Origin: Trichaptum fuscoviolaceum
Lineage: Eukaryota > Basidiomycota > Agaricomycetes > Hymenochaetales > Trichaptaceae
DNA length: 64,000 bases
Assembly (NCBI GenBank): GCA_910574455.1
Contig: CAJSYZ010000011.1
Span: forward strand, 2,960,941-3,024,940
Reading direction: 5' to 3'
Shown one piece after another: positions 32,468-55,086 of the stretch. Within the stretch, counting starts at the first letter, position 1, and the number at the start of each line of letters is the position of its first letter. Below the pieces are notes generated by a model. The model ran no database searches. It was not told where the DNA came from and saw nothing but the letters and a program-made list of their open reading frames with translations. Both the position numbers and the translations under genes were made by a program.

Positions 32468-32487
32468 CAGGGAAACTACTTTCTGCT
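32468..32487 (+). repeat. Left terminal inverted repeat (20 nt, perfect)
   Basis: CAGGGAAACTACTTTCTGCT; its reverse complement is at 55063-55082. Three further bases outside (CAT/ATG) also pair. Confidence 0.75.
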
Positions 32488-32587
32488 GAAAGTGACTTAA
32501 GCGTTACTTAAACGTCCTGAGTGACTTGAAGTCTGAATAAGGCAAACCGCACTTATTCATGCATGTCCTCCCATTATTCAGGACCAG

Positions 32588-32830
32588 TTGGCTGAAATAA
32601 GGGCGAGTTGGCTGAATCAGTGCTCTAAGTGTTTCAGGCAATCTGTACCCCAGTGCTCCAGTGCTTCAGTGCTTCATCCTTTAATTACAGCAGGAGACAA
32701 GTGTTGTAAGACAAACTGCAGTGCTCAAGAGTTCAAGTGCATAAGAACGATCCAAGTATTTCATTGCATCAGAAGTAATATAAGACAACGGTAAGTAGCT
32801 ATCAGTGCCTCAGCGTTCAAGTACATCAGT
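32588..32830. repeat. Left subterminal word cluster
   Basis: Dense repeats of TTGGCTGAA, CAGTGCTC/CAGTGCTTCAG, GTGTTTCAGG and TTCAAGTACATCAG. Similar words occur at the right end (about 54880-55010) on the opposite strand. Such arrays often serve as transposase-binding sites. Confidence 0.55.
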
Positions 32831-33061
32831 CATTTACACAAGACTAAGCATAGCAGTCACTATCATGGAACCCGCCACGACACGATTCTGAACCACTGCC
32901 ACGGGCAGTGGCAGGCCCATTTCGCTACCGTGCCTTCAATTCTGCATGTTCTTTGGCGTGCCAGTAGAAACGAAGGCTGCTCTGCGAGTCGATGGTAATA
33001 AGTTATTGAGCGCGCACGGACAGAGACGAAACGAAGAGGCTCACCAGTGAACGATTTGCCC

Positions 33062-36000
33062 TTAGAAGTCTACGCAGTCCGTGGCCGAATCCCATTTTGA
33101 AGCGTCGTCCTCCTCATTATCGCCATCTCCGCCTGGATCCTTCTCCGCGCCCTCGTCCGCGCCCTCGTCCTCGTCCGCGCCCTCGTCCTCGTCCGCGCCC
33201 TCGTCCTCGTCCGCGCCCTCGTCCTCGTCCGCGCCCTCGTCCTCGCCCTCGCCCTCAATCTTGTCAGCGCCCTCGTACCCGCTCTCACTCAGGTCGTTCA
33301 TCTCCTTTAGCATCGGCATCCTCGTCCTCTGCATCACCTTCAACATCGCTTCTATGCTCAGCTCCTTCACGCTCGTCGCTCTTATAGTCGCTCCCGTCTT
33401 CCCAATTACCAGCGCCTTCATCATACGCTTTCTCGCAGGTCGAATCTGCATCTACGATGTCAAAGTACAAGGAAAAGTCCCTGCCAGTGATACCCGATCC
33501 AACAAGTTCGGTGTTCTTTCTCGTATCGATATCTGTACTGGCATCGTAAGCTAGGAGGCGGGATCGAACCTTTTCCCAGTTTGATTCAGTGAAGAAAGAG
33601 GGATTCGACAACAAGTTAACATAGTCGTCCGTATGAGGCTGCCACAGAGCGCTAGTGAAATACCACTCAGCGCCGCCAAGTTCTTCTTTGATATTTTGCA
33701 ACCGAGCCACCTGTTTATCAATGGCAACCTTGACCTATCCATGAGAAGATCAGCGAATAAGGACAATATAAGTACTGAAAAAAATAGATACCGCTGTTGC
33801 CGCAAGGGCGAGGGCACCGATAGGCTTTCCTATGGTGTTTCTGTCCAGTATTTTATGCCGACCCATGGCCAATACAATGTGTACGGACAACACTGAGACC
33901 ACAAGGTCAGAGCAGAACAGTCCTTGCTTCTGTACATTTAGGGTCAATACATGGACACAAAATGCGACAATAAATACTCTTTTACTTACCCTCTCCATAC
34001 TATACCAGCTTTCCCATAGAAACGGTTCGGCTTTCTTCTTATCAACTAGCGTCTGCAACGTCTTCACAATTGCTTCGTTTTGCATTGACTTTGATTGTTC
34101 GCTGCTGATAAAACTCGCAACTGAATGCTCAGCTTTCTCAAACAGTTTCTTGCGCCAGCTATCAGAGCATCTCTGGGCCGCCTGAAATACAAGGATTGCA
34201 TCTCAATCTGGTAAAGGTAACTTGAAGATAACTAAGAATGACTCAACTAGAGAACAGATGTCGGCGAACTGTGTTTCGTAACTTAGTTCCACAGAATCAA
34301 ACACTTTCCCCCACAGTGTGCTGATGAACTCATTGTCCGGGTTTTGCCATGGCGTGATGGACTTTCCCACTGCGCGAAATAGTGAAGGTAATAAAATATG
34401 AGTCCAACCGGCCTGAGTACCGGGAGGGAGACACTGGTTCGTCGCCCTTTTTCTGCCTGGCACGCGAGATCCTTCCTTTCCTTCATTTCGGCCCTTGTCC
34501 TCCAGCCCCACTGATGTCTGCATATAAGTGAATCAGCAAAAATATGTCATAGAAATGAATTTGATTCGACACACTGAGCTAGTAGTCCGAGAGACTTTGC
34601 GATGACCAGGATAAGCCCCAGTCACTAACACTTCGGGTCCGGGAGTGCAGGATACTCTTGTCATTGCAAGCGACTGTGTTCGGGGTGCTAACGGCATCTT
34701 TCGACCACCGGTCTAATAAGAATAGTGAGTGAATGCTCATATTCAGAGTGTATCAATCGACCCACACTTGCTTCATTATCAGCCACCAGCGACTGCCTCT
34801 TGCGATGTGAGGTAGCGGATCCAATCTCAGACTGCAACACGTCAGAAAGCTGTTATCCATGGCAAGTGAGCAGCTTGAAAGGAAGCAATTACCGTCGTGT
34901 CGGCCACAGGCCGATAAGGAGTGTCAGAGGGTTTCCTCTTCTTACTCAAGTCCTTTTCGCCCGGTCAGAAACAAACTTAAAATGCCGGCTACCAAAGAAT
35001 TGACACTTACTGTGGCACCGACCTGTGTGTCCATGCCAGTCAACAATGACTTCTTGACCTTGACACTCTTACTAGCCTATTGAGATGGTGTAAAGTAAGT
35101 AAACATAAACATGAAGGAATCCATTACACGTGAAGGTGGAAGAATTACCACATCAACCTGGGAGTCGATGTCCGGTGGCGACTTTCTCTTTCTGTTTTTT
35201 GTGACTATGATGTCCTATTTATAGGCACAAATTAGTGATCAACCCGATGTGAGGAAGGGAACGAACAGTTGCTACAGCGGAAGTGAGCCTACGGTGCATC
35301 AACGCCCACACATACCTGTATACGGGGTTCCAAGGCTAGTGAATGCACCTTACAACCATAAATCAGGGGGAAACGAGAGAAACTGGATTAAGATGGGACT
35401 TACCGGTGCGCTGAGCTGCGAATTGGCAGTTCTCTTGTTTGCATCCTGTCCAAAGATCAATTCAGCAAGCAATGAAGGAAGGATGTAGCATGAGGATCAC
35501 TGTGCTTCACTGTCTGGCACTCACCTGTCCACCTGGTTTTGTCTCGTTGTTCTTATCCTCAAGTACGGAAAGGGATTGGTTAGTAGATTGGAAAAGGTAG
35601 GAATGATATGACGTCGCTTACCGTTGAAACCTGTGACCCGGAGAGAGTGTCGCGCAGCAACTTCCTTTTCTTTGAGTTCAAGTTGCTGCTACCTCCATCC
35701 TGTTCATTACACGACAGTTGGCAGAAAAATAATAACGAAGGGATATGATCAAACGGTCATGGGGTAACTGACGTGAATCGAACAGTAATAAGTCACACTC
35801 ACACTAGCTTGAGCCGGCCTTGTCAGCCTCCTCGGATCGCTTTCGCCCTACAAGCAAGGTATTCAGACTGCATCTGCCATTCTAATGTTCCGTCAACTCA
35901 CAATATTTGTGTCCGAATCGACAAAATGTGCTGTCTGTTGCACGCTGATTGAGCTATTCTTTACACCATGATAGCTTGCGAGGGTTATTGTTTCTCCTTC

Positions 36001-37310
36001 ATCCTCCCAAGGACTTAAGTTTTCATTGTCTTGCAATGAGATGCTGTGTCTAGTGTAGCTTGGCGTCAGCGAAGCTCATAATATGGTAACAAAGACGAGA
36101 GTGTCATCGTTGTAGGTAGAAGGAAATTTGATCCCGTTGTCGGAGCGTCATGATCCGCTTCTTTAGCATGAACATTAGTAATCTAGTTGCCAGTGGATCA
36201 AACTATGAGCTTTAGCTGAGTCTAAATCAAGCTTCACACTTACCATTACATCGTGCATTCCAGAAATTGATCCCGTACGCATTGCAAGATTTCAAATTTA
36301 AACTCACAAATTGATCCCTCTCGAGTCATCCCAGCCACCTCAAGTCCTCCATCCTCTTCACCAATGAAAGTGGATTCATCTGTGTTGCGAAGCGCCCTGG
36401 CAGGTCGCTTTGTCTTGTCGTCCCGCTTTGACGTAGCGGGCGAGTCTATTATATCCGTTTCTTCACCAGAAAGGCTCTCGTTCTGTCCGGCAGGTGCGTG
36501 AAAGAAAATGTTGCTTGGAGTGGCGGCAGATCTCGACGTCTTTGCGGTCTGCACACGGGTGCGAAATGGAAGTTCACCTTTGGGATCTTCTTTCCTAGCC
36601 TTTTTTGCAGGCTTTCTGTTTGACGCATCCGTACTCGCCGCTTCATATTGTGAGTCAAAGTAGTCAACCTCCAAGCTTCGAAAACATCTGAAAATGTATA
36701 GGCAGTATAACTCACCAATGTCTAAGTCTTCGTTGTATTCAACTTCACAACCACACGTCTTTAACATCGTTCTTCGAGCCTGCTTACGCCAGTTCAAAGC
36801 TATGTAATTACTGATCTGAGGTTGAAGACTTACTACTAGCTTCGCCCTTTGGCTTCCTACATCCACGTTTTCCAGCGAGTTTAGGCACTGTTGAGCCCAT
36901 CTGGGTGCGTGTCTCAAGAGCCTTCGACAAATTGTTTTCAATTTCTACGGTCTCTAGCATTGCTGCTTCTTGGTTTTCTGCTCAGTCACCTTCTTTCGTA
37001 CCTTGTCAGCTGCCTCTTGTTCTTTTGCTGCCCGTTTCTGCTCCGCAGCGAGTTTTTTCCTCTCTTTCGCGACCGCGACTTGCTGGGCCGCAGCTCTGCG
37101 GAAAGCTGCCCGTTCTTCCTTCTGTTTTTCCTTCTCCTCCTTCTCCTTCAATGCCTCATCCCGCCTCGCTGCCTGCTGTACTTTCCTTTTGTCTTTTTCT
37201 TCCTTCTCCCGCAATATCTCCTCCTTTGTTCGTCTTGTTCTGAGTTGGTCAACTACTGCTCCGGGGTGCTGGTTATTGTTCTTAGCCCTCGTCTGTCTTC
37301 GAGTTGACAT
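33062..37310 (-). CDS. DUF6532-like accessory protein with Lys/Glu coiled-coil head and acidic tail
   Basis: A multi-exon reading chain from the ATG at 37310 to the stop at 33062. The N-terminus (STRRQTRAKNNNQHPGAV) leads into about 90 residues of Lys/Arg/Glu/Ala-rich coiled coil. A middle part (36246-36941) is basic, with likely nuclear signals (KPAKKARKE). A helical region near 33551-34523 (FISTLWGKVFDS, FLWESWYSMERVSK, PIGALALAATAV) resembles the DUF6532 domain of basidiomycete proteins, in which a PxGALAL motif is typical. The C-terminus is very acidic, with GADEDE repeats. Proteins of this build are common in agaricomycetes and often sit beside transposases. Exon boundaries are only partly resolved. 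Function unknown; a DNA- or transposase-binding accessory role is a guess from context. Confidence 0.5.
33147..33255. repeat. 18-nt tandem repeat encoding GADEDE
   Basis: About five copies of an 18-nt unit (CCCTCGTCCTCGTCCGCG). On the minus strand they encode Glu/Asp-rich GADEDE repeats in the tail of the DUF6532-like protein. Confidence 0.85.
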
Positions 37311-37339
37311 TTTGTGCAGTGTTTTGAGACTTGGGTGAT

Positions 37340-37625
37340 AATAAGATGGATCGAAGGTGCTAGTTCAAGATCAGGGAGGCGGGGGCGTCTATCTTAGACA
37401 AGTTGAAAATTTACGCCCACTCACTCAGGCTGCCACTGGCCAGGCTGCCACAGTGTGTGACTTACTACTACTAGTAGTACTAGTACTAGTACTCACTGGC
37501 ACTCAGGCTGGCACTGCACTCAGGCTGGCAGCCTTACCGTACTACCAGGAGTACTAGTAGTACTATGACTAATTTAAACTCAGGTTCAAGTTCACTCACT
37601 GCCAGCCTGCTGGCACTCAGCTGTG
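37340..37625. repeat. Palindromic-word island between divergent transposon genes
   Basis: Short words repeat on both strands: ACTACTAGTAGTAC, CACTGGCA, CTCAGGCTG, GGTTCAAGTTC. The island fills the gap between the accessory gene start (37310, -) and the transposase start (37665, +), so it is likely their shared promoter and/or a binding-site array. The same vocabulary recurs at 41800-41960 and 47090-48290. Confidence 0.65.
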
Positions 37626-37664
37626 AGTCCCAATCATCGACATGTACTACTGAAGGTTACATTG

Positions 37665-40600
37665 ATGCCAGCGACACGGAAAAAGCACGATCCCCTTCAT
37701 TTTCCACCAACTATTCGATGCACCTTGCCCAGCTGTAGTAGGATGTTCAAGAGTCAATCTGGAAGAGCAAGACATGAATATTCAGCTCATCCGATGTCAT
37801 CCGTGGCAAGATCTACTGCCTGTGGTCACGACTACTATGATCCTTCACCTATTCGACCCACACGAGCTCCAACTCCTCAACCTCTACCGAGGTCGTCCGA
37901 ACTTCCAACAGAGGGTCATTTTGAGAGCGGCCCTGACTCCTACGATTACGATATTTCCATGCTTACACAGGATATCTCGATGCTCAGTATAGGCCGAGAC
38001 GAGCTGCTTCAAGACCTAGACAGACCTGATTCTCTGTCCCATTCTGGCACCGGAAGTGACAGTGGCCGTAGTGCATCCTCTGAAGATTTGGACTTCGACG
38101 TTGGAGATCATGAGGAGAGTGATGGTGACCTAAAGGTGTATCACAGATATATGAATGGTGCGCACCAAGTATATTGTCCTCGGTTTGATAGCACTCTGAT
38201 GAAAAACATCGTGCAGCCACCCCGTGTGATGCGGAAGGAAACAACTTAGAAAACGACGAACCACCTGTTCCGCGAAATGAACCTGCACCAAATGACTGGT
38301 CTCCCTATTCGTGCCGAGCAGATTTTGAGCTCGCAGACTTTCTTTATCGCGATGAGAAATGTCTGCTGGTAATATAACAAAGCTTCTCGGAATCATGAAG
38401 GCTTACCAGCGAATTCAGTCTGTGAAGAACGCGAAATCTGGCGGATATTCTGAGTTGGACGTAACTAAGCCCGACGATGACTCAGATCTGGATCCCACTA
38501 GTACGCTACTCGATGGAGACGCACAAAAGTTGTACAATGTCATTGACGCTACGAGAGTTGGTGATGTGCCTTGGAAATCCTTTAGTAACTTCTACACGGA
38601 CAACAATGGCCAAAAAGCGACAGACGAGAACACCGAGTCATGGAAGAGGAAAGGATATGATGTATGGTATCGGGATCCCTTGGAAGTGATCCGAAATTTG
38701 GTGGATAATACGGCTTTAGAAGGCGAATTCGACTATGTCCCATTTCGTGAATATCAGCCAAAGGAGGAATCTGATGACATCAATGACAAAGAACGAGTGT
38801 TCAGAAATTACATGTCCGGAAATTTTGCTTGGGAACAGGCTGTAGGTCATGACTCATGAACTCGCAGGAAACATACTGATTATCCTTGACTTAGAATAAG
38901 ATCTACGCCGAAGATAAAGCAGTCCATGGATCTATGTTCGTTCCGGTGATCTTGGGGAGCGACAAGACAACAGTTTCCGTTGGAACTGGCAACAACGAAT
39001 ATTATCCGTTATATCTCTCAATAGGAAATGTATCAAACAAGGCCCGGCGGTCCCAAAAGTTGAATACAGTCCAGCTTGTAGCATTTTTAGCAATACCAAA
39101 GAGTGTGTGTCAAAAACTGAGCCATTCAATTGTGTTTTGACGCTTTTTTGCAGCTGAGCGACAGTACGAAAAGTCAGATGACTTCCGTCGCTTTAGACAT
39201 CAAATTTTTCATTCATCTATATCGAGAATCTTGAGTTCACTGAAGACCGCCATGTCCATAAACAATGAACAGACCATTCTCCGGTGCCCTGATGGTCACT
39301 TGCGTAGGTCGGTTCTCGGATTCGGCTCGTATATAGCCGATTATCCGGAACAGGTGAGTCTATGCGCAATATGCACTGGATGGTGCTGCAAGTAAGTACC
39401 ATCCTTTCCAAAATCGCATAGGAGTCTGAGGAAATGGCTTACGGTGGCTATATAGATGCACAGCTCCCCACAAGGACCTAGATAATCCGGAGTTTGCATC
39501 AAATCCTCGAACAAAAGAGCTACACGAACGATTGATAGAGCAGGTAAATGACAACAACTTAACCAGAGCAACAATTCGCAAAGAGTATGGGTTCCACCAA
39601 GATATCGTGGTATGTGCTCCAAATTCTCCATTGGATGCGCTTCTAAGAACTATGTTTTCCCGTAGCCCTTCACCAATGACTTTCCGCGCGCAGATATATG
39701 CGATCTCATTTCTCCGGACCTATTGCACCAAATCATCAAAGGTGCTTTCAAGGATCATCTTGTCGAGTGGATATGCCAGAGCTTGACCACAACAGAGCTG
39801 GATATTGTGGATAAAAGGTGCCATTCTCAAACAATTTGTATAATATGAATACTATCGCTGACCTCCGCGTAGAATCAGAGTCGCTGCTCCTTTTCCTGGA
39901 CTACGTAGATTCCCCGAAGGCCGAGGCTTCAAGCAATGGACAGGCAATGATTCAAAGGCACTTATGAAAGTATGTGATTTTTCCTTCTTGTTCGAGGCGG
40001 TCGTTTGCTGATAGTAGTCGATGTAAACCGCTTAGGTGTATCTTCCGGCTATTGTGGGCATTGTGCAGGATGATATAATTCATGCATTGAGTGCATTTCT
40101 CGACTTCTGTTATCTTGTGCGTCGGTACACGATTACAGCCTCAACACTTGATCAGATCAAAGCCTCTCTGGATTGCTTTCATCAATATCGGCAAATATTC
40201 ATAGCTATGGGTATCCGGGACAACTTCTCACTACCACGACAGCATGCCATGGTCCACTATCCTACAATGATTCCTCTGTTCGCTGCACCGAGTGGACTAT
40301 GTTCATCGATCACAGAGAATAAGCACATTTACGCGGTCAAGGAAACATGGCGACGCTCAAACAAAAATGATCCCTTGGGTCAGATGATCACAGCAAACCA
40401 ACGACTCAGTAAACTTATTGCATTCAAGGGCAGACTTCAAAAGGCGTGGAATGCTGGATGATACGTTAGCCGAGGCTTCGTGGAGAGCTTTGCGAGATGT
40501 TTTGCGCAAGAATATGTTGTCAGAGTCAGAGTCGGATGACGCTGAGAGGGACCCTGATGCCAGTGGGGGAGAGCAGATGCAACAACGTGACGTATTAGTA

Positions 40601-41669
40601 GTAGGTGAAGCTGATGATACAGATGACTTCTTCGATGCCATTGTGGGTATTCAAGAGCTCAACGAAATTGCAGATTTGGACGATTCCGAAAGTTTAATAG
40701 ATGAGCCACAGCGTGGTGCGGTTCATGGCGTAGGAAATGCTGAACGCCAGCTCCGCTTGGGTGGCGGGAATGACCCTTTGAGCTTTACGTTAATGGCTTC
40801 GAAAAAACGTTAGTGAAACATCCTTTTGGTGCTGCAAATCCAACTTGTTTATTGTTATCCTTGCAGAGTCCAGTAAAGTGTACCCTAAACAGCTCGATGC
40901 TCTCGCGGCAATAGAAGGCTATCCAGAACTTCGACAACTCCGACAACTCATCAAGAAACACTTATTCAACAAGTACGAAAGTTGTAACACCAACTCAAAG
41001 TGTTCTGCTACTACTAGTAGTAGCAGGCAAGCCAAATTAAACTACAACGGATTTGAACACTATAAACTGGATATTAGCAATGACTTTTCAATTTTCCATT
41101 CAGCCACCGCGTTCTTTGCGTATCGTGGTGAATCGATCCCTATAGAACAAGCAATGAGGGAGGTGATCAGGTCCAGTCCCTCTTGGCGCGGAAAACCTCG
41201 ACGAGATGCAGTTCTTGTCCGAGGTGGTTCCCGCAAACAGGGGTTCGCAGGAATGAGAGTTGCCAGGGTTATACTTTTTTTCTCATTCACCGTTAAAGTG
41301 GAACGTCAGGAATGCGCTCTCGTCCAGTTTTTCAAGCGTGTTGGAGAATCGCCCGACCCGAAAACAAGAATGTGGATAGTTGAACCAGCATATGAGTTGG
41401 AGAGCTCTACCGCCTGTGTCGGACGCTGTCCCGGAGTGAATGACAGTGGCAGACATCACTATCACCGTGACTGCAAGGCTCCGAAGCTGTCTGTGATAGA
41501 TATAGGGGACATCTTTCGTTTAGCTCACCTCCTTGGGGTCCCGAAGGGTGACGAATCTCCTCCGAAGTCATTGACACCTGAGGAATCCCTGGACTTTTAC
41601 GATAGATTCTACGTTAACAGATTTGCTGACATGCACATGCACGAAACATTGTACGAAACTAGACAATGA
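37665..41669 (+). CDS. Plavaka-type transposase (two apparent frameshifts)
   Basis: The ATG at 37665 opens a C2H2 zinc finger (CTLPSCSRMFKSQSGRARHEYSAH), the usual N-terminal DNA-binding module. An intron at 38136-38191 joins it to the CDAEGN block. Then come hallmark Plavaka segments in order: DWSPYSCRADFELADFLYRDE, VGDVPWKSF, YDVWYRDPLEVIRNL, GEFDYVPFREY, MFVPVILGSDKTTVSVGTG, NEYYPLYLSIGNV, FLAIPK, RCPDGHLRRSVLGFGSYIAD, CAICTGWCCKCTAPHKD, DICDLISPDLLHQIIKG, LPAIVGIVQDDIIHALSAF, and the C-terminal SPSWRGKPRRDAVLV and FYVNRFADMHMHETLY. At about 38357 one A appears missing between RDEK and MSAG. Near 40410 the frame shifts again before DFKRRGMLDD. So the copy may be inactive unless these are sequence errors. 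At least seven introns are visible. Confidence 0.85.
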
Positions 41670-42117: not shown

Positions 42118-45100
42118 CTAGTTGTGGTGACTGTTTCTATTAGAAGACCTTTCTTCCTGCTTGCCATTAGGAAGATACATCGGTGTGCAAATATCCTCAG
42201 GCTTTCGGTTCATCACTTCGCTTAGATAATCGCGATACTGTGAGTTGTAGATCTCTCCCGGTGATAAACTCGTCCTGGCAGTCGAAGCCCCGGCCGTAAC
42301 CCTCGCTCCGGGTGGTATATCGTTACATATCTCGAGCACCGTTGCTATCAGTTGGTCTTGAAATTTATCATAGCGGGTACTATTGTGGGTATCCTTCAAG
42401 TCTACGTAAGCCGTGAACTTCTCAATAGAGTCAAGGACTGCGTCAGTTCTCTCCTCCCGAGCATGTATGATATCGTTCATTACGTAGCGGATTGAACGGG
42501 ATAGCTGGTTACCCATGACTGTGTGGAAAAGATCCTCGTTGAGGACTATTTGCAACCACCTCTTGACGACTTTAAAACCATGTATCAACTCCCGCTGAAT
42601 CCTTTCCAAACGACGGACATCTCGTAAGTCGAGTTTGTTCAAAAAATCAGCGAAAGAGGGATTAGGCCCCAAGGCCTTCAAGGTCCTTTTCATGTCTTCA
42701 ACAGATTTGATGCGAAGGTCGTCGGCCATAACAAAGTTCGGCACTTCTTCACCGTTATGGAGTGCGCGGACCTTGTCCCAAAGTGTGAGCGCCAGTCTCC
42801 GTCCAATCTCCGAGTCTTTAAAGACTAGATGCTTGTGAACGTCAGGCTGAGGGCGTACCTGAGGCAATCCCCCAAACAGTTGGACCGCAGGCGTTACGAA
42901 AGTTCCTGGGTTGTCCACCGTCATTGAGTAGAGCCTTTCCTGTGCATTGGGCTTGAAATTAAACTGAAGAGCTGCCGATTGTTGGAGGAGTTTGTCAATT
43001 TCTACGATGAAATCGTAAAGTGCGTTGTAATGGAGCTGGAAATATGGTAGAAAGAACCGGAAAGCAGTTAATTTGTTCACCTGAGATGCGTCGAATGGCA
43101 GGTTTTGACGTTGCCAAGCTTCACGATTCAGGATAAATTTGACATGTGGTGGGTCTTTTACCACAGTGTAGGATATTTCTTCCGGTTCCGGGGAACGACT
43201 CGAAGTCGGAGGTGGCAAGTAAACTCGAAGGTATCGATTAAAGTGTTCATGCATGACGACAGTGTTACGACCTGGGGGGAACCTGGGGGCCGGGGCGCGT
43301 TAGCGGCTTCCGGGGCAAGGCCTGGGAGAGCGCGCGGCAGCGGCGAAGGCGAAGGGGAACCGTTAAGGACGCTACAACGCCAACGGAGTCGCGCGGGGAG
43401 CGGGGCTACGGGGGCGAGACGCAAGGGGGCTCAAGGCGAGGACGGGACGGAGTCAGAGTCGAGGCTGGGAAGGCAGAGTCGAGGCGCGGGGAGACAGAGT
43501 CGAGACGCGGGGAAATGCAAAGCGGGATTCTGGCGGGAATCTGGATTCGCGCGGGAATCTGGATTCGCGCGGGAATCTGGATTCGTGCGGGAATCTGGAT
43601 TCGTGCGGGGATCTGGATTCGTGCGGGGATCGCAGAGCGGGAATTGTTCGGGGCTTTGGCGGGAATCACAGAGCGGGATTCTGGCGGGAATCTCAGAGCG
43701 GGATTCTGGCGGGAATCTCAGAGCGGGATTCTGGGCAGGACTCAGAGCGGGATTCGCAGAGCGGGACCCGGGACAAGACAGAGACAAGAGAGCCAGAGAG
43801 CAGGCGTGCTCAGGACGGGAGCAGAGAGCTCAGGATAACCGGGATCTCAAGGCAACACTTCTGTATCAGGAGGAGGTTCCCTAAGGAAGCACTCAACAAG
43901 TCAGCATTGTAAAACTACACTAGAGACAAGACAGAAACACACCTAAGGAAGCACTCGACAAGAGGACAAAAGTGAGTGCTCCTTACGGTGGCGACAGGTA
44001 TTTATCTACTGGGCAGAATCTACAGGGAACGGACATGCACAAACGCGCAACTAACTAGTTACACAATCTTGCGGGCGAAGGCCGCGCATACAGTGACGTG
44101 AATCCGGGTTTCGGGATTCGGTGCGGGAACATCTGGGTAAGATCTAAGGGAACGAGCGTGAAGCATGGTCAAGTGAAACAAAGAGAACTTAAAGGAATGT
44201 AATTGTGCGCGAGGTATCAAGCTGGCGCACAGGCAGCGGGGTAACGAACGTGGGGGGCGGATGTAATGCATACATCGTCTCGGGATAAGTTGCAGGCAAC
44301 TTCTGGCGTGGATCAGGGTCGCGGGAGATCGACAGGGACCAACTTCGAAGAAGCCGGTGCTTCGATGTCGTAACGAAGCCTAATCGCGAGGTGCGCGCGG
44401 GGCAGGGCGACTAAGGACGGGGTTCGAGTCCTTGCGGACAATGAGATCAATCCCGCACACGGGGTGGCGGGAATGTGGTCTGCGGGCCGGGACAGGACGC
44501 TACTAACGAGACTAGTTGGCTGGCACGTGCGTGGCCAGGCCAATCACCTGGGGCTATCTCAAGACGAGGTTAGCATCGAGGAGCGGGGAAGCTAAGGGGT
44601 TTCCCTTGGACGACGGGAAACTCGCGCGATTCGCGACGGGATCATGCAGGGAATCTGGTTCGGGTTTCGACCGGGTTTCGAGTTCGGGTTTCGACTGGGA
44701 ATCGAGTTCGGGTTTAGACCGGGAATCGAGTTCGGGTTTCGACCGGGAATCGTAGCGGGAATCTTTCGGGAATCAGAGCGGGAACTTAGCTGGGGTTGCG
44801 ATGGGAATCGCGGCGGGATCGAAGGCGGGAATCCTGCGGGGGATTTGCGCAGGGATTCGAGACGGGATGCGAGGCGGGAAACGAGCGGGTTTTCGACTGG
44901 GATCGTGCGGGGGAAAGGAGCGGGATTCCAACCGGGACGAGTGGGGGAGTCTTGACAGGACTCCAACCGTGAACGAGCGTGGGTTGCGGGATTGTCAGAG
45001 GGGACGCTTGACAGCGTTCGCGGCGAGGCGGGATTCCTGGCGGGGCAGGCTGTGGACGAACAAGGGCAGGTCGAGAGGCACAGGATGTCGAAGGGGTTAG

Positions 45101-47056
45101 CTAGGGCACCGTGGCAGGACAAGCGCAGGGCAGGGTTCGTGACCGGGCAGGATTGCGGGATAGCAATCCTTGACCGCTGTCGTGTTGGCTTACTCAAGGC
45201 CAGACAGAGGTCGGCTTGGACGCAGTGGATCAATCTCCTAACTGCACTTCATGACTGTGGACGCGAGGCCGGGATCTGGTATCCGGGCATAGTCGAGAAC
45301 CTACGAGGTCTGGGATAGCTATGGCTATGGCTATGGCTGTGGCAGGCTATGGCTATGGCTGTGGCTATGGTGAGTGACTTCGGGACTATGGCGAGGTACG
45401 GGGTTCGCTGGGGCGGGGAACAGAGCATGACGGGAGCGGGGAGCGAGCGGGGGATCATCCTAGAGTCGGGGGAACGATGAGGCGGGCTAGGGATGGATCT
45501 AGACACGGGGACGAGGCGGGGGACTGACGAGGAGACGTGGGCGAGGACAAGCAGGGGCGAGGAGGTCGTAGCGGGGCGGAACTCTTAGCAGGAGAATGCA
45601 TGGCGAAGCAGAGGTTCTTCTGGGATCAGAGAGCGGGGGATCCTTTCGGGATCTAGCCAAGGTCGCGATTTCGGGTTTCAGCATACCGTGTTCTGTTCGG
45701 GATTGCCTTAGACATGTTGGGGTCCTGGGGGATCCCGACAGACAGACAATGTCTTAAAGTTGGCGGCAAAGTAATTGAGAGTGCCGGGAACAGAATTCAT
45801 TGAGTACTTGGTTCTCAGTATCTCCTCGCCAGTGAAATCAAGGACAATTGCACAGCCTTCCCGGAGGTAGGTCAGTAGATTATCTGTAAGCTTCCTCATT
45901 CTTACAGCGTCGCCTGCTTGCCGTGACTAACAAGGGTATGTTTTTAGATGTCACTCTTTTTAGAAATGTGATCATGTTACTTACCCCAGACATTTTGTCT
46001 TCCACGAGATCGATTGACGCTGATACGTCATTTAAAGTATCTGCAACGTTCTTCTGGACTCCTTCCATCACGGCAAACCTCTTCTCCAAATCCGTAACTC
46101 GAGCCCTCAATTCATTGGAATCCTTTTTATGAAATTCCTCCCATTTTTTCAGCTTCTTGGTCAAGTCCTGCAGCTGCTTGACTCCTGCATTTGGATCGTC
46201 TAAGGGCTCGAGCTCAGAGGGGGTTGGCGAATGAGATGAACTCTTTGGGATCAAGTGAGCCGATTCGATGTTTTCTGTGCCAGTGAAGGGTTAGCTTTGG
46301 ACACAGACTATGATAGAAAAGGGAGGAAGAATGCGTTACCTTCGCTTGGATCGACGTTATCAACTTGAGAATCCGATACTCCAATTGCCGGCGAACTGCG
46401 CATAGATTTTTGGGCAGCAGACACTTTAGAACGCAAATCCGACAACATGTCATTTGGAGTACTACGTGGGCTGCGGCTGAATCGAGGCCGAGGAGTAGGT
46501 GAAGGGGTTGAAGGATTGAGGACGCTAATTTGAAGAACCCTCTTATTTGGAATAGTCGGATCGTTCTGCGCGACGTCCCGGGAGGAGGGAAAGGAACTCG
46601 GTGGATCAGAGTTCCAGACACGCCTCCGAGGCTCCCCTCGATAGCCATTGGCGCCAAAGTATGTTCCAAGTCCTTCACGCGGTGTATAACTGTTGTGTAC
46701 GTGTTGTGCGCTGCCTCTATAGTCGCGGTTCAAGTCCGCAGGGTATGAGGAGCTGGTCCTGTCTTGGTATTGCCCACTGGCGCTGGTAAGGCTCGGCCCC
46801 GGAGTGCTCGTGAGACTGTGCTCATAAAGTCTCCGTTTATTACTTCTGTTCTTGCTGTGCCAGTCCTTCTGTGAATACGGCGGTGAATAGGAACGTTCAC
46901 GGCCCTTCGAGTACCGATTACGACTGGAACGATGCTCCGACTCGGATTCGGATTCTTCGAAATAATTGTCAGAACCGGCGAGGGGTCCGACTCAAACTCA
47001 GGCTCACCTTCACTTTTCGGGCTGCGCTGACGCTTCTTACTATTGTATGATGGCAT
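42118..47056 (-). CDS. Transposon accessory protein of unknown family, interrupted by an LTR-type insertion
   Basis: Reads from the ATG at 47056 (MPSYNSKKRQRSPKSEGE) to the stop at 42118. The head is basic and Ser/Pro-rich with SRSPRSTPND-type stretches. A coiled coil follows (KQLQDLTKKLKKWEEFHKK). After exon 45708-45899 (LTDNLLTYLREGC) a 2478-bp insertion at 43263-45740 breaks the frame. Beyond it a long open frame continues (MHEHFNRYLRVYLPPP) with helical, charged sequence. If the insertion and one copy of its 5-bp duplication are ignored, the codons on either side are in the same frame, so the gene was intact before insertion. I recognise no domain; family and function are unknown. As it stands the gene is probably broken. 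Confidence 0.5.
43533..43732. repeat. 18-nt and ~24-nt minisatellites inside the LTR-type insertion
   Basis: About five copies of GCGGGAATCTGGATTCGC (43533-43630), then about three copies of a related unit GCGGGAATCTCAGAGCGG plus GATTCTG (43659-43732). Confidence 0.85.
44659..44752. repeat. 24-nt minisatellite inside the LTR-type insertion
   Basis: About four copies of a 24-nt unit containing CGGGTTTCGACCGGGAATCG and GAGTT. Confidence 0.85.
45318..45370. repeat. GCTATG hexamer repeat
   Basis: Repeated GCTATG with GCTGTG variants, in the 3' part of the LTR-type insertion. Confidence 0.85.
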
Positions 47057-47089
47057 AACTGCAAACTGGAGGAGTCTCAGGCTTGCCGT

Positions 47090-48290
47090 GAGTAGTGATG
47101 CCGAATATTAGTAATAGTAGTGGTAGTGGTAGTAGTGGTACTACCTCACGCGGAAGTTCGGTAGCGAGTAGTAGTAATAAGTAGTAGTAGCGAACTTGAA
47201 GCGGATCAGGCTCACGCTCGGCCTGAGGCTGTAGCCTGAGTGGTTCTAATCGGTAGAGCTACTACTAGTAGTACTAGAAGTACAAGCTTAAAGATCTCAG
47301 TTAGTGGATGAAGTAGATCTAGAAGGCTGAAAGCTCACTCACCACCAGTGCCAGCAGTCTACAAGTAGGATGAAATTCAGGTGGACTTCAGGATGAGAGG
47401 GCTTCAAGCTGTTGATGTGTGAAGTTGAAGAACAAGCCTAAGTACTAGACTTGGGCACGACACGTCGCTCAGGCTCACTGGGGTGCAACGTCAAGTTGTG
47501 GGCATGGGGTACTCAGGCTACTAAATTCGGAACTTGAACTTGAACTAGTTGAAAGTCCGACGGCTCGGAGTGGAAACGCTACTAGTACCTCAGGCTGCCA
47601 CGTACTACTGCCGTGACTCCCGGGCCGTCGGAGTCGGACATCATGATCACTGCAACTCACTGGCAGGCTGAATGATCCGACTCGGAGTTGGCATTCAAGT
47701 TGCGCGCGCCGACAACTTCAACTTGAAATTGAACTTGAATGCCACTGGCATGCCAGTGATGTTTGGCGACTACTACTACCTACTATTAGTACTCACTGGC
47801 AGGGTACCGTACTACTACTAGCCACTGGCAGCTGAATGATCCAGTCTTAAGCAGCTTAAGCTTCCAGTTCTGTCCACTCAGACTGGCAAGTTGTCACAAT
47901 CTCAACTTTACTACTACTACTAGTAGTAGTATACGGTTCGAGTCCGAGTTCGAGTCCGAGTCCGAGTCCGAGTCCGAGCCTGAGTTCAAGGCCGGACACC
48001 GGACCTGAGTGAGCTTGAAGGCTGGCCCAGCACTGGTGAGTGGCACTCAGGCTGTCCGGCCGGCGTGACGGCGGTACTTCAAGTTCAAGTTCAAGTTCAA
48101 GTTCAAGTTGGAGCCTCAGGCTGAGTCGGAGTCGGGTCAGAGTTCAACTTGAAGTTGACTCGTCATCAATTCAAGAACTTCAAGTTGAAGCTGAGCCGAG
48201 CCTCCTCCGACTTGGACTCGGAGTCTCACAGGCTTCAAGTTACTACTGCTCTACGCCCCGACTCGTGAATGCCACCAACTAGAACTGAGG
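47090..48290. repeat. Large palindromic-word island (about 1.2 kb)
   Basis: Almost entirely built from ACTACTACTAGTAGT runs, CACTGGCATGCCAGTG-type palindromes, CAAGTTGAACTTGAA words, TCAGGCTGAG words, a TCCGAG hexamer run (47940-47990) and a TTCAAG hexamer run (48075-48108). It lies between the accessory gene start (47056, -) and the plus-strand genes from 48787. Likely a regulatory or binding array of the element; not coding. Confidence 0.65.
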
Positions 48291-48786
48291 TTACTACTAC
48301 AAGAGGTAGTAGGCCTTTCGTTTCACTGTTGAGTTTGCTGTGTATACTCTCTTTTTTCTTCCGCCGCGCATCTGCCGACTCACTCACTCTGCCTGTCTCA
48401 GCATGCTCAAATTGTTCTATCGGTTTCAACGCCTTGCGCAGCTCACGTACGTCTGCACGATACTTTTGTAGCTCCCTGTGGGTCGACGCGTTTCGGCTCG
48501 TTCGGCACGGCTCGTATGGAAACCCAGGGGGTAGGAGTTCGACCGCTTTTGCAGAGGACACGAAACCACTACCGTCTACGCAATTTACTGCGCCCACAGC
48601 AGGTGGTTGCCCCAAGTCTTGCCCCAGGCTTCTCTCGCAAATTTATCCCGACGCGTATCCCCTTACCGACTAAAGCAATGGCGAGCACACTGGGGCGCAT
48701 GCGCACACGTCTACCTCCACAGTTGACAACACGAATTCCTTCAGCAATTGGTGATGGTAGAGTGATTACATCCGTCACCATATATC

Positions 48787-50064
48787 ATGAGTGAACCTTC
48801 TCCAATGGATAGAGCTACGCCAGAGAGCTCATCATCAGTGGTGGCTGATGAGTGCAGGACGTTAAAACTGGTTGCTGCACTTGCATCCGAGGTCTGTTCC
48901 TCCCAGGTTTTGAATCGCGAGACGCATCACCGACGTTTGGAATGTGCAAAGAGGCAAGTTACTGAACCGGCGCTCACAGGCACCAGGAGGGGATGTGCGT
49001 GCGGTAATCAGTGAGCGAAAGCTTCTACTGTACTTCTCGAGTAAGTTGTTCTTTTATTTTTTGAATCATAATACTCACAGGCTTCTTCAGCTTTGGAGCA
49101 TCGGCACAGGGAATGTCCATACGTTCTCCGAGAAAATCTGCATAAGATTTACGCCGAAAATTGTATTGTCTTTTTTCTTGGGCGTGGGGGATTGGACACA
49201 TCCGTTCGCGTATGGAATCTGCAAATGGGTATGATTTTCTTCACATTCATTCATCCCCGACTCGTCAGTGACAACTTTTCAGTACGACTCCGACTTTCTT
49301 GTCACCGGAAGGAACGATGGCCGCGTCAGCTTCTTCTCGTTTCATCGTTCCTCTTTTCCTCGACCATCTCCAGCTCAACAATAAGCGGCCACAGGACTTG
49401 CACTGAGCAGTCAGGGGACGAGTCTCTATCCCTACCGTCTACACTCACCTCAGGGATCCCTGCTCAATCGACATCTAAGCCTAAGTTCGCCTGGCCTGAG
49501 CGGCGAAAGAGCCCAAAAACATGGGAAGGATGCTGAACAGCTACGCTCTCTCAACACATACAACAGTGAGGAGAGAAAAGGTTGCGAAGTTGCGCGGTCG
49601 GATTCGTATATACGGGGCTATGTATCACCGGGCAGTTTGATGCGTCCCAATATTCCGCTTGCATGCACAAAGTCCACCAGACGTCGACAAAGCGACTCAC
49701 AACTCAATTTGCAAATGCAGCGAAGGGAATGATTATAACTGCATTTTCGACATCATCCAAGTTGTCGTGTCCCCATTCCTTGCCAAACACCTCTGCCCCG
49801 CCACCATTGCCGCCTAAATGGAGAACGCTCGGTTTCAATGTGCAGTATGAGTTGATCGTCGGCCGACAGCGCGATTCCCTCAGCTCCGAGGACGAGAAAC
49901 GCGCCTTCATGCAAATTACTCCTTCCGAAGCGGGTTGGGATGCATTCAAGTTCAAGTTGGCCCATTTCCCATTTTGGCACGGTTCTAGTTCAAGTTTCGG
50001 GTTGAGTACAGGGATGACTGGTTGTATGGTGAGTTACTCGTGGCTTTCTTCGAAATCCTTCTAG
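48787..50064 (+). CDS. Unrecognised plus-strand gene inside the transposon
   Basis: Several plus-strand segments look protein-coding by composition: SEPSPMDRATPESSSS and TLKLVAALASEVCSS near 48787-48960, then ALEHRHRECPYVLRENLHKIY and IVFFLGRGGLDTSVRVWNLQ near 49090-49230, then YDSDFLVTGRNDGRVSFFSF near 49280-49345, then a polar stretch. Possible introns are about 49040-49088 and 49231-49281, but I could not phase the second exactly, and stop codons interrupt later parts. I do not recognise the family, and despite the VRVWNL words it does not form WD40 repeats. It may be a decayed accessory gene. Confidence 0.3.
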
Positions 50065-50380
50065 AGCTGATGGAGCAGCTTCTTGTGCAGTGGGTTGTAT
50101 CCTCCCGACTTCTTCGGAGTTAACATGACTCATTTTCTTGTTCGTTTGTGCTTAAAATGAAAAGAAGCCTTATAATCAAGTCATCCGGAAGAAATCATTT
50201 GTTATCTCCTATCAGTTCAACTTGCGGTTTATCCAAGTCATAGTACAAAGCACTAATAGCTCCCCCTCTCTTTCTAGAAGAATGGGAAATCAGAAAACTG
50301 ACTTCAACTACTTTGTATAAGTGTGAAGTGGGAGCGGGTATCGTCCCCAAGATCATCATCCAGCCATTCCACCGTGAATC

Positions 50381-51423
50381 ATGTTCTCAAATCTTTGTAC
50401 TATCCTTCTCATCCTCCTCTCCCTTGATTACGCACGCCTGCACCTCCGCACCGTCCTCCGCTTTCAGCTCGTTCAACGCTGGACAGCAAGGGCTCAAACG
50501 AAGGTACTTGTTTCATTCATATCAAGATCTGTACACTGACTTGTTGCTAGATACACAAGAAACTGCAAACGTTTCTTGATTTCCTCGGGGTACCACCAAC
50601 ACCTCTCTCCGAATTAGATGAATATAGGCCCCATAATATAGTTCCGATACAGTGTTGCAGGGGCTTGGATGTGGACAACGCAATGACTGCAATATATGCA
50701 TCTTTGCCACAGGTACCAGCTAGGAGATTTGTCTCGATCGACATCGAGTGGGCAAGTGGCGGAAAAGGGTCCAATCATCGCGTAGACCTCATCCAACTCG
50801 CAGTTCAAAACCAGGTTTATCTGGTCAGGACGCATACTCTTACTGACCTTCCTCCTACGTTGGCGCAACTCCTTGGGGATGGTACAGTCATGAAAGTTTC
50901 AGCTGGAATCAACGGTATGAATAACTTATCTTTTCTCCTGTGAGGTGGCCAACCAGAAGAAATGGCAGGTGACGCAGTGCGTATAAAGCGCAAGTTTTGC
51001 ACCTCTGTGCGCTCCTGTGTCGATCTGACAGATTGGGCGCGCGTTGTCTACCCGGAAGTCTGGCCCAAAAACCCGACCTGGTCCCAACTGCTCTTAAACC
51101 CTTGTCTCTGGTTCCAGCATCCGACTCCGACTGTCAAGCTCGAAAAAATAGTGGGAGAAGTATTGAAGGCTGAACGTCAAGAAGAGTAGTGAGGTCACGA
51201 TGAGTGACTGGGCAGCTAACGAGCTATCAGCGGCACAAATACAATGTAAGTTATCATTTTGTTGCTCAAGATCAACCATCTTCAAGTTCTCACTTGCATG
51301 ATCTGCTGTACTGGAATACTAGATGCTGCCATTGATGTTCACAGCACGTTTGCTGTAGCTTTGGCCCTGAGCCAAAGCCACCCACCCTTACCGGATAAGT
51401 ACATCAAGAACTTCGAGGCTTGA
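50381..51423 (+). CDS. WRN-type DEDD 3'-5' exonuclease domain protein (one apparent frameshift)
   Basis: Exons 50381-50503, 50551-50914 and 50969 onward, then a last exon from about 51324 to the TGA at 51421-51423. The N-terminus (MFSNLCTILLILLSLDYA) is hydrophobic. Exonuclease motifs are clear: Exo I FVSIDIEW with RVDLIQLAVQNQVYLV, Exo II GINGDAVRIKRKF with SCVDLTDWARVV, and Exo III SDWAANELSAAQIQYAAIDVH. This order matches the Werner-type DnaQ-like fold. Between KLEKIVGEVLKAE (about 51170) and SDWAANEL the frame must change by one base; removing the frame difference continues the family pattern. So it is either a recent pseudogene or carries a one-base sequence error. It lies within the large transposon, so it may be cargo. 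Confidence 0.65.
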
Positions 51424-51719
51424 TCTAGTAGGCTGAGGCCCACCAGTAGCAGGTTTGACCAAATGTGCTTGAGTTATCGAGTAAATTGTTGTGCACATGC
51501 TCTTGTCTTTCAAAGTTGCCAGGAGATTCATGATTAAAATTTATTATTGAATTGCTTTTTTTTCCCGAATGATCACCGTAGTCTGAGGTATCAAAGTGGT
51601 TTGGAAGATGTCGCCAATGGTGTCTGTCTGCTGTGAGCAACCCAATGGATTAAATAGTTTTCAACACCACTATTAGTGCTTTTTCAAGACACTTCAAAGT
51701 TTTCAAGACAATTCAATAT

Positions 51720-51773
51720 AACGCCCGGACGGGCCAGCTTTTTGCTGGCGATACCCGAACACCTCTGGGCGTT
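51720..51773. other. Two-part hairpin-forming sequence
   Basis: Outer arms AACGCCC (51720-51726) and GGGCGTT (51767-51773) enclose an inner perfect hairpin GCCAGC-TTTTT-GCTGGC (51733-51749). It lies between the exonuclease gene and the glucan synthase fragment. Function unknown. Confidence 0.5.
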
Positions 51774-51900
51774 AAGTAATCACAAGCTACATATTTTACC
51801 CAAGCGGTGCAGCAACTATTTTTCCTCCAATAGTAGTACTATGTCAGTGGCAGATTTGTCTGCTCTGATGCATTATATTATTTTATTATATAGTCCAGTG

Positions 51901-54783
51901 TCAGAGCCAGCTTGTCCCCGTCAGGCTTCGCAATAACCTTCCGTACTCGCATTCCGCGCGCGCAAAGTAGTCCTCGCCTTCGGATACATCAGAGCTTGCT
52001 GAACCACGCCTTTCTAATTTCAAAGTGCGAGGAGGGAGCAGATGCTGCTCCAGAGGCACGAGTGTCGAATGGCTCCAAGCTCCAGGAGATCCAGTGATCG
52101 AGTTGTGTGGGCTGTCGTATGTGCTTCGGGTATCCCAGTTGGGTTGCGTCGGTTCTTCCCGATGTTCAGCTTCACCATCAGAAGGTCTCCATGCTAAAGA
52201 GCCAGCGATCTGACGACTAGTAAAGTTAATGCTACGCTTGTGGAAGTCTCCCATGCGCTGACGCCATTCAACAACCGGGAAACGCTGAACAGCCGAACGA
52301 GCACGCAAGATAGCATGTTCTTCTTCCGTAGACTTAAGCGCCATTTTTATTGTTTTCGTAAGCTGGGACAACATGTGTGCTGTTGAACTCGATTCGACAG
52401 GGAACCACTGTGTTCAAAGTCAGATTGCAAAACATTAGAAAAAACAAATGCAAACTTACCCAACCAGGCATGAGACCGAGACCACCGTATGGAGGCGAAG
52501 TAGTGAACTCTGGCTTTGAGTACACTCGGTTCGGGTACATCTCCATGAGACGAGCAAGCTTCTCCGCAGCGAAACGTCCATACAAGTTAATGACAGGCCC
52601 GACACAATTCAACTGAATCGAAGGGTGTTTTTCCAGTCTGGCATTAATAAATGAGCAAACATTCATTTACTTAGCAAAATAGGATTAAGAAATAACTTAC
52701 AGCGAAGGCATCATGTCTGCAATAAGATCTACACCCTTTTGCTTCAACCAACAACCAATGAACACGAATAGATCTGCCTAAGGATCCTGTGCAATACCAG
52801 CCCACTCCTGAGCCTGCTGCTTGAACTCCGTACATTTCGCCTCTGCTTCCTCATCAATCTGAATGTCCTTGATTTGAACAGGCTGTTCGTCCAAAGCAGC
52901 AATAACCGTTGGGTCCGGATTCGGGAGCGAGTCGACATGCTTGAGTGTCCAAAGCGCCGGGTAACGCGCCCACGACCGTTTACCATACTGTCAGAGACAC
53001 CAGCGACACCGATCGATTTCTGGTGCACATTGATGAAGGATGCTGCGGCGTGGAGCAAGTTGAACGTGTTTCCGAACTGAACGAACGTGCTCCTTGCTGA
53101 TATTGAACACCGAGCACACTTCCTTCATCTCCTCCTTCGTGCGGAGTGGCCACAACCCCTGGAGCTCCGCATTGTGGAGAGACAGACAGATGGGGAGGAC
53201 CTTCGGGAGCAGATAGATAGGTGCGAGCGCACTGTGGTAGTCATTAATGTGGTAGATATCAATCTGCGGGTAGCACCTAACGGTTGCTGCGATAGCCTGG
53301 TTCCATGTCGAGTAGAAGATAGCTGAGCTGATATCGTCATGCGCGCATGATACGGGTCCGCCTTTGTTTGTGCGCGGAAGACAGGCAAGTCGAGGACGAT
53401 GTACGTGATGTTGTCGAGGACATGCGTCTCAACCTCGATAAGGTACGGGTCGCCGAAGATAATGACTTCGATAGGTTCTGCAGGTTCGCCAGCAGGGTAC
53501 TCAATGTCTTTAACCTTTGGTACAACCTAAATCAGGTCGATATCCGACATTGCCTTGCCCATCAAATCACACCAAGACCACCGATCTTGACCTTCAACTT
53601 CCAATATGATCTCGTACTCCAAAGTCGCAATGAGCATGGTCCTCCGCTTATTCTTGTCTTCCGGCCAGCCAATGATGTCGCCTGTATGCGCGTGTCCATG
53701 GCTCGAGTGTTTCTCCGACATCGGCGCCACATGCAGGTCTTGCGCAGACTTCGAGCCCAGCGAGCCAATGACGGGGAAATTGTGCGAATGATCCGGCTTC
53801 TTTTCCGTGAGACCCCACTGGTTGTACTTGATCCCGTAGAAGCTCCACATGAAGATCGCCACTGCCAATGTACCAGTGACAACCGGGATCGACAGGAGCA
53901 GCGCGTACATGATAGCGCCCACAGTGCTCTCCCCACGCGGCTCGAGGCTCCACCGCATCGTCGCGTCATCTCCGACCAGCGTACAACGCGAGATGCGGGT
54001 GCGGCGGAGCACTGACGTTCAAGTAGTTGGGCGCAGCCAAGTTGGGCGGGAGGCGGTCATGACGCCGTTGCCGTCCGTGTCACCGTAGAAGTAGTCATCG
54101 AAGCCAAAAACGTTGAGCTGTAGGTACGTCGGCCATGTACTCATAATTTCAAGCTCCCAGCGTCCGTCGGCGGTATTGTCCATCTGGAAGCTCACTCCTC
54201 TGTGGAAACCCCAGGTATTGAACGGACCACGAGCAAGGAACTGAGGAACACGGCACTGATGAGCATAGTTCCTGTCCGCATGTACAACAGTATAGGATGA
54301 TGCAGCAATAGCAGACCAGCCTATTGCAAAATTGATTAGCAGATCGCAGCACATACTAGTATAAGAGTAAGAGCACTTACATTGTACAATAATATGCTCG
54401 CCCGCCCACCAATTCTCATCATTGTCAAACAAGCTTTTATCTATGCTCGTCACATCCTCATACGCCGTCCACGTCGTCCAGTTTTGACCATAATTCCACA
54501 AGAACCTGAACATATCTGCGCCCAGCGCCTGGTGCGTGAACGTGTACTTCCCAGAACCCGAGTCCAAGCCGAACGCATCGTTGTCGTAGTCCGCAGAGGG
54601 GAAGATCATAGGATTGCGCGCGGAGCCCTTGCGCACAAGGAGATGGTCGCGTGCATTCGTGAACGAAGTGCCGTCCTGCGAAGGCGGGTTGTTCACAATG
54701 ATGTCGATGATTCCGTCCGACGCGTTAGGAATCTCCGCACGCAAGGCAGTCCACAAGCCCAGTTTGATTTCCGTCTAATTTGA
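51901..54783 (-). pseudogene. ags1: Broken internal fragment of alpha-1,3-glucan synthase (ags1/mok1 family)
   Basis: Minus-strand blocks match the middle of cell-wall alpha-1,3-glucan synthases in order: SGKYTFTHQALGADMFRFLW, NDENWWAGEHIIVQ, RGPFNTWGF, FGFDDYFYGDTDGNGVM, the TM helix ALLLSIPVVTGTLAVAIFMW, HNFPVIGSLGSKSAQDLHV, then glucosyltransferase parts ([73 protein letters not shown]). Damage: a frameshift near 54050, shifts near 53600, TAG at 53527-53529 where Trp is expected, a shift near 52980, and a stop at 52778-52780. A block of about 35 residues is deleted between [10 protein letters not shown] and GGLGLMPGW; this is the segment that carries the conserved acidic donor-site motif of the GT5 fold. 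The N-terminal amylase-like domain and C-terminal multi-helix domain are absent. Not functional. Confidence 0.9.
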
Positions 54784-55062
54784 ACATGGATGGTGGAGGA
54801 AGAGGCAATTGGCATTGCCGCACTTCAAGTTTTCTCAACTGGTTTCCTAATTCAAGTTTAGATGTAACAAAAACGTAAAAATTTTCCAAGTCCCATGTTA
54901 CTTGAGCACTGAAATCCTGACTTGCATTCTGATGTACTGAGAGATGGCTTGCATCCTGAAACACTCTTTATTTCAGTGAGTTAAGGCAATCAGTGTATTT
55001 TCAGACGAAGTAGCGACCCTTCAGACAGGTGCCAGCCAAATCAGGACGCGTCAGTCGCCGTA

Positions 55063-55082
55063 AGCAGAAAGTAGTTTCCCTG
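55063..55082 (-). repeat. Right terminal inverted repeat (20 nt, perfect)
   Basis: AGCAGAAAGTAGTTTCCCTG, the exact reverse complement of 32468-32487. Confidence 0.75.
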
Positions 55083-55086
55083 ATGA

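Follow-up and report, generated by a model that had tools for sequence, protein, structure and literature searches.

A 64,000-nucleotide stretch of the Trichaptum fuscoviolaceum genome (contig CAJSYZ010000011.1 of assembly GCA_910574455.1, positions 2,960,941 to 3,024,940; hereafter the window) contains inverted repeats 22.6 kb apart, between which lie a Plavaka transposase gene, an exonuclease gene and a fragment of an alpha-1,3-glucan synthase (ags) gene. The question that this locus raises is whether so large a segment is a single transposon and, if so, whether the genes beyond its transposase are cargo like that of the giant elements of ascomycetes, as the original prediction proposed, or have another origin. 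Our analysis points to a PlavakaB-type (CACTA-related) cut-and-paste transposon, about 20 kb long when intact, that captured a piece of a host ags gene and then multiplied, a reading to which we assign a probability of roughly 0.88. Judged from the sequence, a Plavaka element of a fungus has here captured host gene sequence (transduplication).

Borders, family and copy number of the element

The element spans positions 32465-55085 of the window (22,621 bp). Perfect inverted repeats of 20 nt, flanked on both outer sides by AT, had been claimed. The repeats were indeed perfect and longer than claimed, with 23 identical nucleotides at each end (CATCAGGG...CCCTGATG; the left repeat reads CATCAGGGAAACTACTTTCTGCT at 32465-32487, with its complement at 55063-55085). 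The letters AT were present as well, but all 30 ends that were fetched, each an exact 20-mer match on contig C1 or C2, had CAT directly outside the 20-mer, and the supposed outer AT is therefore part of the repeat. The four subterminal words that had been described all lay within 300 bp of both ends, whereas their co-linearity held on condition that one repeated TTGGCTG copy and the second of three left CAGTGCTC copies were chosen. Identical 2-bp sequences flanked all 13 element pairs compared, namely the window copy, six full copies, three position-paired end pairs, one element of a second subfamily (SF2) and two short elements (AA, AA, TA, GA, TT, CT, TT, GA, TG, AA, TA, AA and AG; chance 1/16 per pair). 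An uninterrupted 50-bp relative of the joined flanks was found at window positions 30153-30202; it spans the insertion point and matches at 43 of 50 positions (E 1.9e-8).

The transposase gene matched the Plavaka family PF18759 in two segments, at 38904-39392 (E 1.1e-46) and 38518-38841 (E 4.8e-23), and at least 165 exon-wise matches to this family were found genome-wide; the proposal of one transposon of more than 20 kb with a Plavaka transposase was upheld, and the element recurs across the genome. PlavakaB has been defined by CATCA..TGATG ends and duplications of 2-3 bp, and its transposases by C(2)C and H(3-4)H motifs between the second D and the last E, in the portion of Kojima 2025 (PMC12730594) considered here. 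The element carries these termini and a 2-bp duplication in every pair, and together with PF18759 these features match the PlavakaB type; CAIC at 39363 in the unspliced transposase gene is a candidate for the C(2)C motif. The Pfam scan took in 20 of the 42 reading frames of at least 120 aa, and no tyrosine recombinase was found above the cut-off in these frames. One frame (48235-48642), far from both element ends, resembled a phage-integrase SAM-like domain at E 0.051, but its 14.3 bits fell short of the cut-off (22.3), and we took this match as chance.

To describe the 20-kb, ags-carrying family that includes the window copy we use the label SF1. A genome search with the end sequence revealed many other copies: the 20-mer, with up to three mismatches, had 303+276 matches in the 59.09-Mb genome (100 places listed), against 1+1 for a reversed-pattern control. 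Of 336 candidate places for the 306-bp right end, 40 were scored, and 31 of these, the window among them, conserved it at 95% or more along all 306 bp; the ags stretch was present in full length at 99-100% in 29 of 41 listed matches, that is, in the window and 28 other places. Six SF1 copies fetched whole measured 20,031-20,178 bp each. Pairwise comparison of five of them (B, C, F, G and H) over about 20 kb gave 3-14 substitutions and 13-21 gap openings; copy A, the sixth, aligned in pieces, with 70-78 mismatches in the three longest. This near-identity indicates that SF1 spread recently, to some thirty near-identical copies.

The window copy is longer than the others mainly because of a 2,478-bp sequence that is absent from the six fetched copies; without this sequence and its duplication, the window copy measures 20,138 bp. 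Elsewhere in the genome, where 40 of 700 candidates were scored, it is matched in full length at least 33 more times, and six times the matches form direct pairs about 4 kb from each other. We read it as the solo long terminal repeat (LTR) of a GC-rich, strand-asymmetric LTR element, and the six pairs suggest a unit of 2.5-kb LTRs with only about 1.5 kb between them.

Origin and decay of the ags fragment

The host ags gene was located at C1:4170300-4178799, with its likely start present, and none of the four end words occurred in these 8.5 kb. Another locus, C3:4774960, was considered as the host gene and rejected, because it lies inside a 6.5-kb element (see below) and the host gene is on C1. 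The SF1 ags fragment aligns to host positions 4226-7172 at 88-91% and keeps a host intron, which argues that DNA, not a transcript, was captured. Over the 529 codons compared with the host exon, SF1 ags carries eight indels, all of them frame-shifting, and two stops, and three SF1 copies differed by only 1 and 3 bases in the host-exon region. By these comparisons the SF1 ags fragment is dead, and its decay preceded the burst. Hence pieces of a glucan synthase gene do lie inside the element, as originally described, but they are frame-broken pieces of a host gene and not functional cargo.

The plain dN/dS of ags against the host gene was low (SF1, 0.08; short elements, 0.17 and 0.10) and rose to 0.17 for SF1 and to 0.28 and 0.18 for the short elements when mutation type was allowed for. 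The low plain values would suggest a working ags, an interpretation that was rejected in view of the frame-breaks and of the lineage counts of nonsynonymous to synonymous changes, which were 41:71 for those unique to SF1 and 21:12 and 28:35 for those unique to the short elements. Frame-breaks and lineage counts together suggest a diverged source followed by decay. Sixteen synonymous sites, and no nonsynonymous ones, united SF1 with one of the short elements and set the two apart from the host gene and the other short element.

Among 94 ags loci, drawn from 150 listed of 171 genome matches, 33 were near SF1-type right ends (two within one element), 25 were within 6 kb of a match to the alpha subunit of the transcription factor TFIIF (TFIIF-alpha; 1.3 expected by chance), one was near both and 35, including the host gene, were near neither; in all, 59 of the 94 had a family right end or a TFIIF-alpha match, or the two together, beside them. 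At C4:5404082 and about ten similar places, we also observed open frames of about 190-377 aa that derive from ags and have one internal deletion in common; no match to the family end sequence was found within the 9 kb read at C4:5404082.

Short elements carrying two host gene fragments

The units at C3:4773390-4779880 and C9:1486351-1492875, each about 6.5 kb long, are 91.2% identical to each other and possess the family ends and duplications, and neither matched the transposase frames used as queries. From left to right, they consist of the left end, a TFIIF-alpha piece, an ags piece and the right end. Their ags piece is 87-94% identical to the host gene and has two internal deletions. The TFIIF-alpha piece gave no match with its first reading frame and was recognised through the second, which matched the yeast subunit in PDB (E 4e-9) and, just under the cut-off, Pfam (E 9.7e-6). 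It is 89-91% identical to a host TFIIF-alpha gene with a 460-aa frame at C3:4164100, so that for both ags and TFIIF-alpha, host-gene fragments were found between transposon ends and their source genes elsewhere in the genome. Because they have the family ends and duplications, the short units may be presumed to move in trans. Shorter elements with the same ends had been named as an observation that would speak against a 20-kb unit. Such elements do occur, at 6.5 kb, but they are separate non-autonomous units, and the 20-kb unit is upheld by the six full copies.

The unit at C9:1486351-1492875 sits within an SF2 transposase gene. Two SF2 elements 386 kb apart, C9:1484682 and C9:1870932, have ags and TFIIF-alpha at the same distance from the Plavaka domain; the interrupted SF2 copy was probably duplicated with the short element inside it (the first of the two was read). 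Further TFIIF-alpha-like fragments with near-equal scores were seen about 15-170 kb from contig ends (C2:168152, C3:5376630, C5:7829180, C6:15858, C8:68777 and C10:30662).

An exonuclease gene common to two subfamilies

Next to the ags fragment lies a gene for a WRN-like 3'-5' exonuclease. Its frame at 50551 scored 21.7 bits against DNA_pol_A_exo1, just under the curated cut-off of 23.6, and the match in the window copy contains a stop and goes no further than residue 208 of 249; the motifs are complete in fetched copy G. When two GT-AG introns were removed, the exonuclease proteins of SF1, of SF2 and of a further set of units (SF1b, see below) contained DIEW, GINGD or GIAGD, and YAAID, which we take to be the three motifs of DEDDy exonucleases (DxE, GD and YxxxD). 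Loss of the second catalytic Asp was considered and rejected, since the frame in question had run through an intron and the Asp is present after splicing.

The SF2 example C1:3548804-3567282, which is 18.5 kb long, with the duplication TA and 3 mismatches among the 20 nt of its right end, has both ends, the transposase region (85% DNA identity), one gene without assigned function and the exonuclease gene in the same order as SF1, and no ags was found in the parts of it that were read (all but about 4.4 kb). The SF1 and SF2 exonucleases are 54-61% identical in amino acids. We calculated an adjusted omega, in which nonsynonymous changes are compared with a neutral expectation that takes account of mutation type. 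Nonsynonymous changes in the exonuclease were fewer than this expectation, with values of 0.42-0.44 for SF1 against SF1b (34 differences) and 0.36 for SF1 against SF2 (132 differences), similar to the 0.37 of the transposase segment. Being common to the second Plavaka subfamily and constrained like the transposase segment, the exonuclease looks like a core gene of the transposon. The original prediction had counted it as cargo; a match is present, though sub-cut-off, but a gene common to SF2 does not fit that description.

Near-identical exonuclease segments also occur in a second set of units (SF1b). A histidine-kinase fragment lies within 5 kb in 42 of 50 exonuclease loci at about 92% amino-acid identity, as against none of 23 SF1 loci. 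This fragment matched HisKA in Pfam below the cut-off (E 7.8e-4) and histidine kinases in PDB at 2.9e-14, and was found in 60 places at 98-100%; a candidate host gene, with 80% identity and a 303-aa frame, is located at C11:1656160. In the one place read, the exonuclease segment is 96.8% identical in DNA to that of SF1 over 1,451 bp, and the match ends at SF1 position 16583, about 300 bp before the ags match. Units of the type seen at C5:484900-489399, with an intact exonuclease frame followed by the histidine-kinase fragment, number in the dozens and are near-identical. Their right end was not found in C5:484900-489399 or in C5:490600-491299, a search placed at the distance seen at C3:3860802.

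Proposed mechanism and alternative explanations

We propose that a piece of ags was captured as DNA beside the right end of the element, either by gap repair copying the host locus or, as has been put forward for Pack-TYPE elements in the part of PMC8903248 considered, by tandem insertion followed by re-mobilisation. This piece would have decayed before the whole unit multiplied to about thirty near-identical copies. The ends and duplications are observed; from the family we infer that the transposase would recognise the 23-nt ends and subterminal words, excise the unit and reinsert it with a 2-bp duplication. The exonuclease, for which constraint was observed, and probably the genes without assigned function would be accessory genes of the element itself, and the short ags and TFIIF-alpha units would have been moved in trans. 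The window copy would later have been hit by an LTR retrotransposon.

Several observations weigh against this proposal. Movement of the element is inferred from a single assembly. Compared with the host gene, SF1 ags shows a greater share of synonymous changes than a dead copy should (44 nonsynonymous changes seen, 112.5 expected), so that its donor was probably some other, diverged copy of ags and not the C1 host gene copy. Moreover, the exonuclease gene may be exchanged between element types, considering that it occurs at about 92% amino-acid identity in the histidine-kinase units, mostly without a listed Plavaka match nearby: such a match lay within 20 kb of 3 of 50 histidine-kinase-type loci and of 18 of 23 SF1 loci, in a list of Plavaka matches that is incomplete.

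That same scarcity of Plavaka matches around a near-identical segment would also be expected if the exonuclease were a captured passenger and not a core gene, but this is unlikely, given that SF2 shows the same gene order at 54-61% identity and that the constraint equals that of the transposase segment. More weight should be given to the possibility, which we nevertheless consider rather doubtful, that ags entered the 20-kb element through recombination with short ags-carrying elements instead of by a capture of its own. In both kinds of element ags has the same orientation and the same neighbouring end, and an intermediate place exists at C3:4053537, where ags is 93% alike and a TFIIF-alpha match is close. 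However, SF1 ags extends 154 bp past the ags/TFIIF-alpha joint of the two short elements (host position 7172 as against 7018), and so was not derived from units of precisely this type.

A Starship-like giant element, in which exonuclease and glucan synthase would be working, host-beneficial cargo, might be suggested by the size above 20 kb, the genes beyond the transposase and the SAM-like match at 48235-48642. Yet ags is frame-broken and comprises only part of the gene, the element has a Plavaka transposase, short inverted repeats and 2-bp duplications and exists in dozens of near-identical copies, and no tyrosine recombinase was detected above the cut-off in the 20 of 42 frames scanned, so that we regard this explanation as very improbable. 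The likeness to giant ascomycete elements with large functional cargo is not supported: 2,478 bp of the segment are a solo LTR, the exonuclease is found in SF2 too and ags is broken. A chance inverted repeat or a segmental duplication, with no transposon at all, can be practically dismissed in the face of 579 end matches (reversed control: 2), duplications flanking all 13 pairs and a related uninterrupted target.

Returning to the captured-fragment transposon, an exchangeable slot next to its right end is suggestive only. A broader version, in which transposase and DEDDy exonuclease form the core of a modular capture system whose slot holds ags in SF1, histidine kinase in SF1b and ags with TFIIF-alpha in the short units, and in which the exonuclease acts in end processing or capture, seems to us improbable.

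Other features of the window copy

Three further genes have no assigned function. No Pfam match above the cut-off was obtained for the gene at 33285-34202, part of whose region is 94% identical in SF2 and whose constraint comparison comprised three differences only, and no Pfam family was found for that at 36246-37364. The gene at 42118-43262 is 28-46% identical in amino acids to its SF2 counterpart and probably continues in frames at 45880-47107.

Table 1. Positions of the element's parts in the window
Feature	Positions	Strand	Remarks
Left target duplication copy, AA	32463-32464	.	From flank comparison; rule in 13/13 element pairs
Left terminal inverted repeat	32465-32487	+	23 nt, CATCAGGG type
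Left subterminal region	32488-32760	+	Words common with right end
Gene of no assigned function	33285-34202	-	Two reading frames; acidic, repeat-rich end
Charged gene of no assigned function	36246-37364	-	Start MSTRRQTRAK...
Plavaka transposase gene	37578-41669	+	Several predicted exons; PF18759 at 38518-38841 and 38904-39392
Gene of no assigned function, first part	42118-43262	-	Split by LTR
Nested solo LTR	43263-45740	.	2,478 bp, TG..CA, 5-bp duplication GACAG; read as later insertion, not cargo
3'-5' exonuclease gene, WRN-like	50551-51174	+	Frame stops early in window copy
Captured host ags fragment	51941-54719	-	Intron kept, frame broken; 88-91% to host gene
Right terminal inverted repeat	55063-55085	-	23 nt
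Right target duplication copy, AA	55086-55087	.	

Significance and comparison with known systems

The locus would show a fungal Plavaka element taking up and multiplying pieces of host genes, with source genes, capture joints and a recent burst in one genome, which makes the capture mechanism of CACTA-like elements directly testable in a fungus. It also points to a conserved transposon-borne exonuclease with a presumed accessory role, and it warns that many frames annotated as glucan synthase in genomes of this kind can be passengers of transposons.

Transduplication by hAT elements in ascomycetes, Pack-CACTA elements in plants, Helitron capture in Pleurotus and the carriage of TET/JBP genes by Plavaka are already known; our literature search, in which supplements lay outside the scope, brought up no description of Plavaka elements with fragments of host genes such as ags or TFIIF-alpha. 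The following comparisons draw on portions of the papers cited. The closest system is PlavakaB itself, which has the same transposase, CATCA..TGATG ends and a 2- or 3-bp duplication, in Agaricomycotina, and some members of which carry an extra TET/JBP gene (PMC12730594); the element described here differs in carrying a fragment of a host cell-wall gene, and neither "exonuclease" nor "glucan" occurs in the main text of that paper (supplements outside scope). Histone H3 has been transduplicated by hAT elements in Pyrenophora tritici-repentis and Pseudocercospora fijiensis (PMC3538342, PMC6710886). There too a DNA transposon amplifies a host gene of a fungus, and in P. tritici-repentis the longer forms are putatively autonomous and the shorter ones non-autonomous, but those elements are hAT elements of 2.3 to 9.9 kb with transcript capture, whereas here a 20-kb Plavaka element carries intron-containing, apparently DNA-captured sequence and two host genes are joined in the short form. 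Starships are marked by horizontal transfer or strain-specific presence and possess a captain tyrosine recombinase near one end, and no such recombinase was seen here above a cut-off in the frames scanned. In basidiomycetes, Helitrons of Pleurotus ostreatus have likewise captured genes in both autonomous and non-autonomous elements (PMC4289320); these are rolling-circle helicase elements, unlike the present ones with their inverted repeats and Plavaka transposase. Plant Pack-CACTA and Pack-TYPE elements are, as here, CACTA-related and include non-autonomous units with pieces of host genes (PMC8903248), and large plant CACTA elements with captured fragments have been described, one of 16.5 kb with a satellite array (PMC8978399); in the present case, the host is a fungus and the ends are those of Plavaka.

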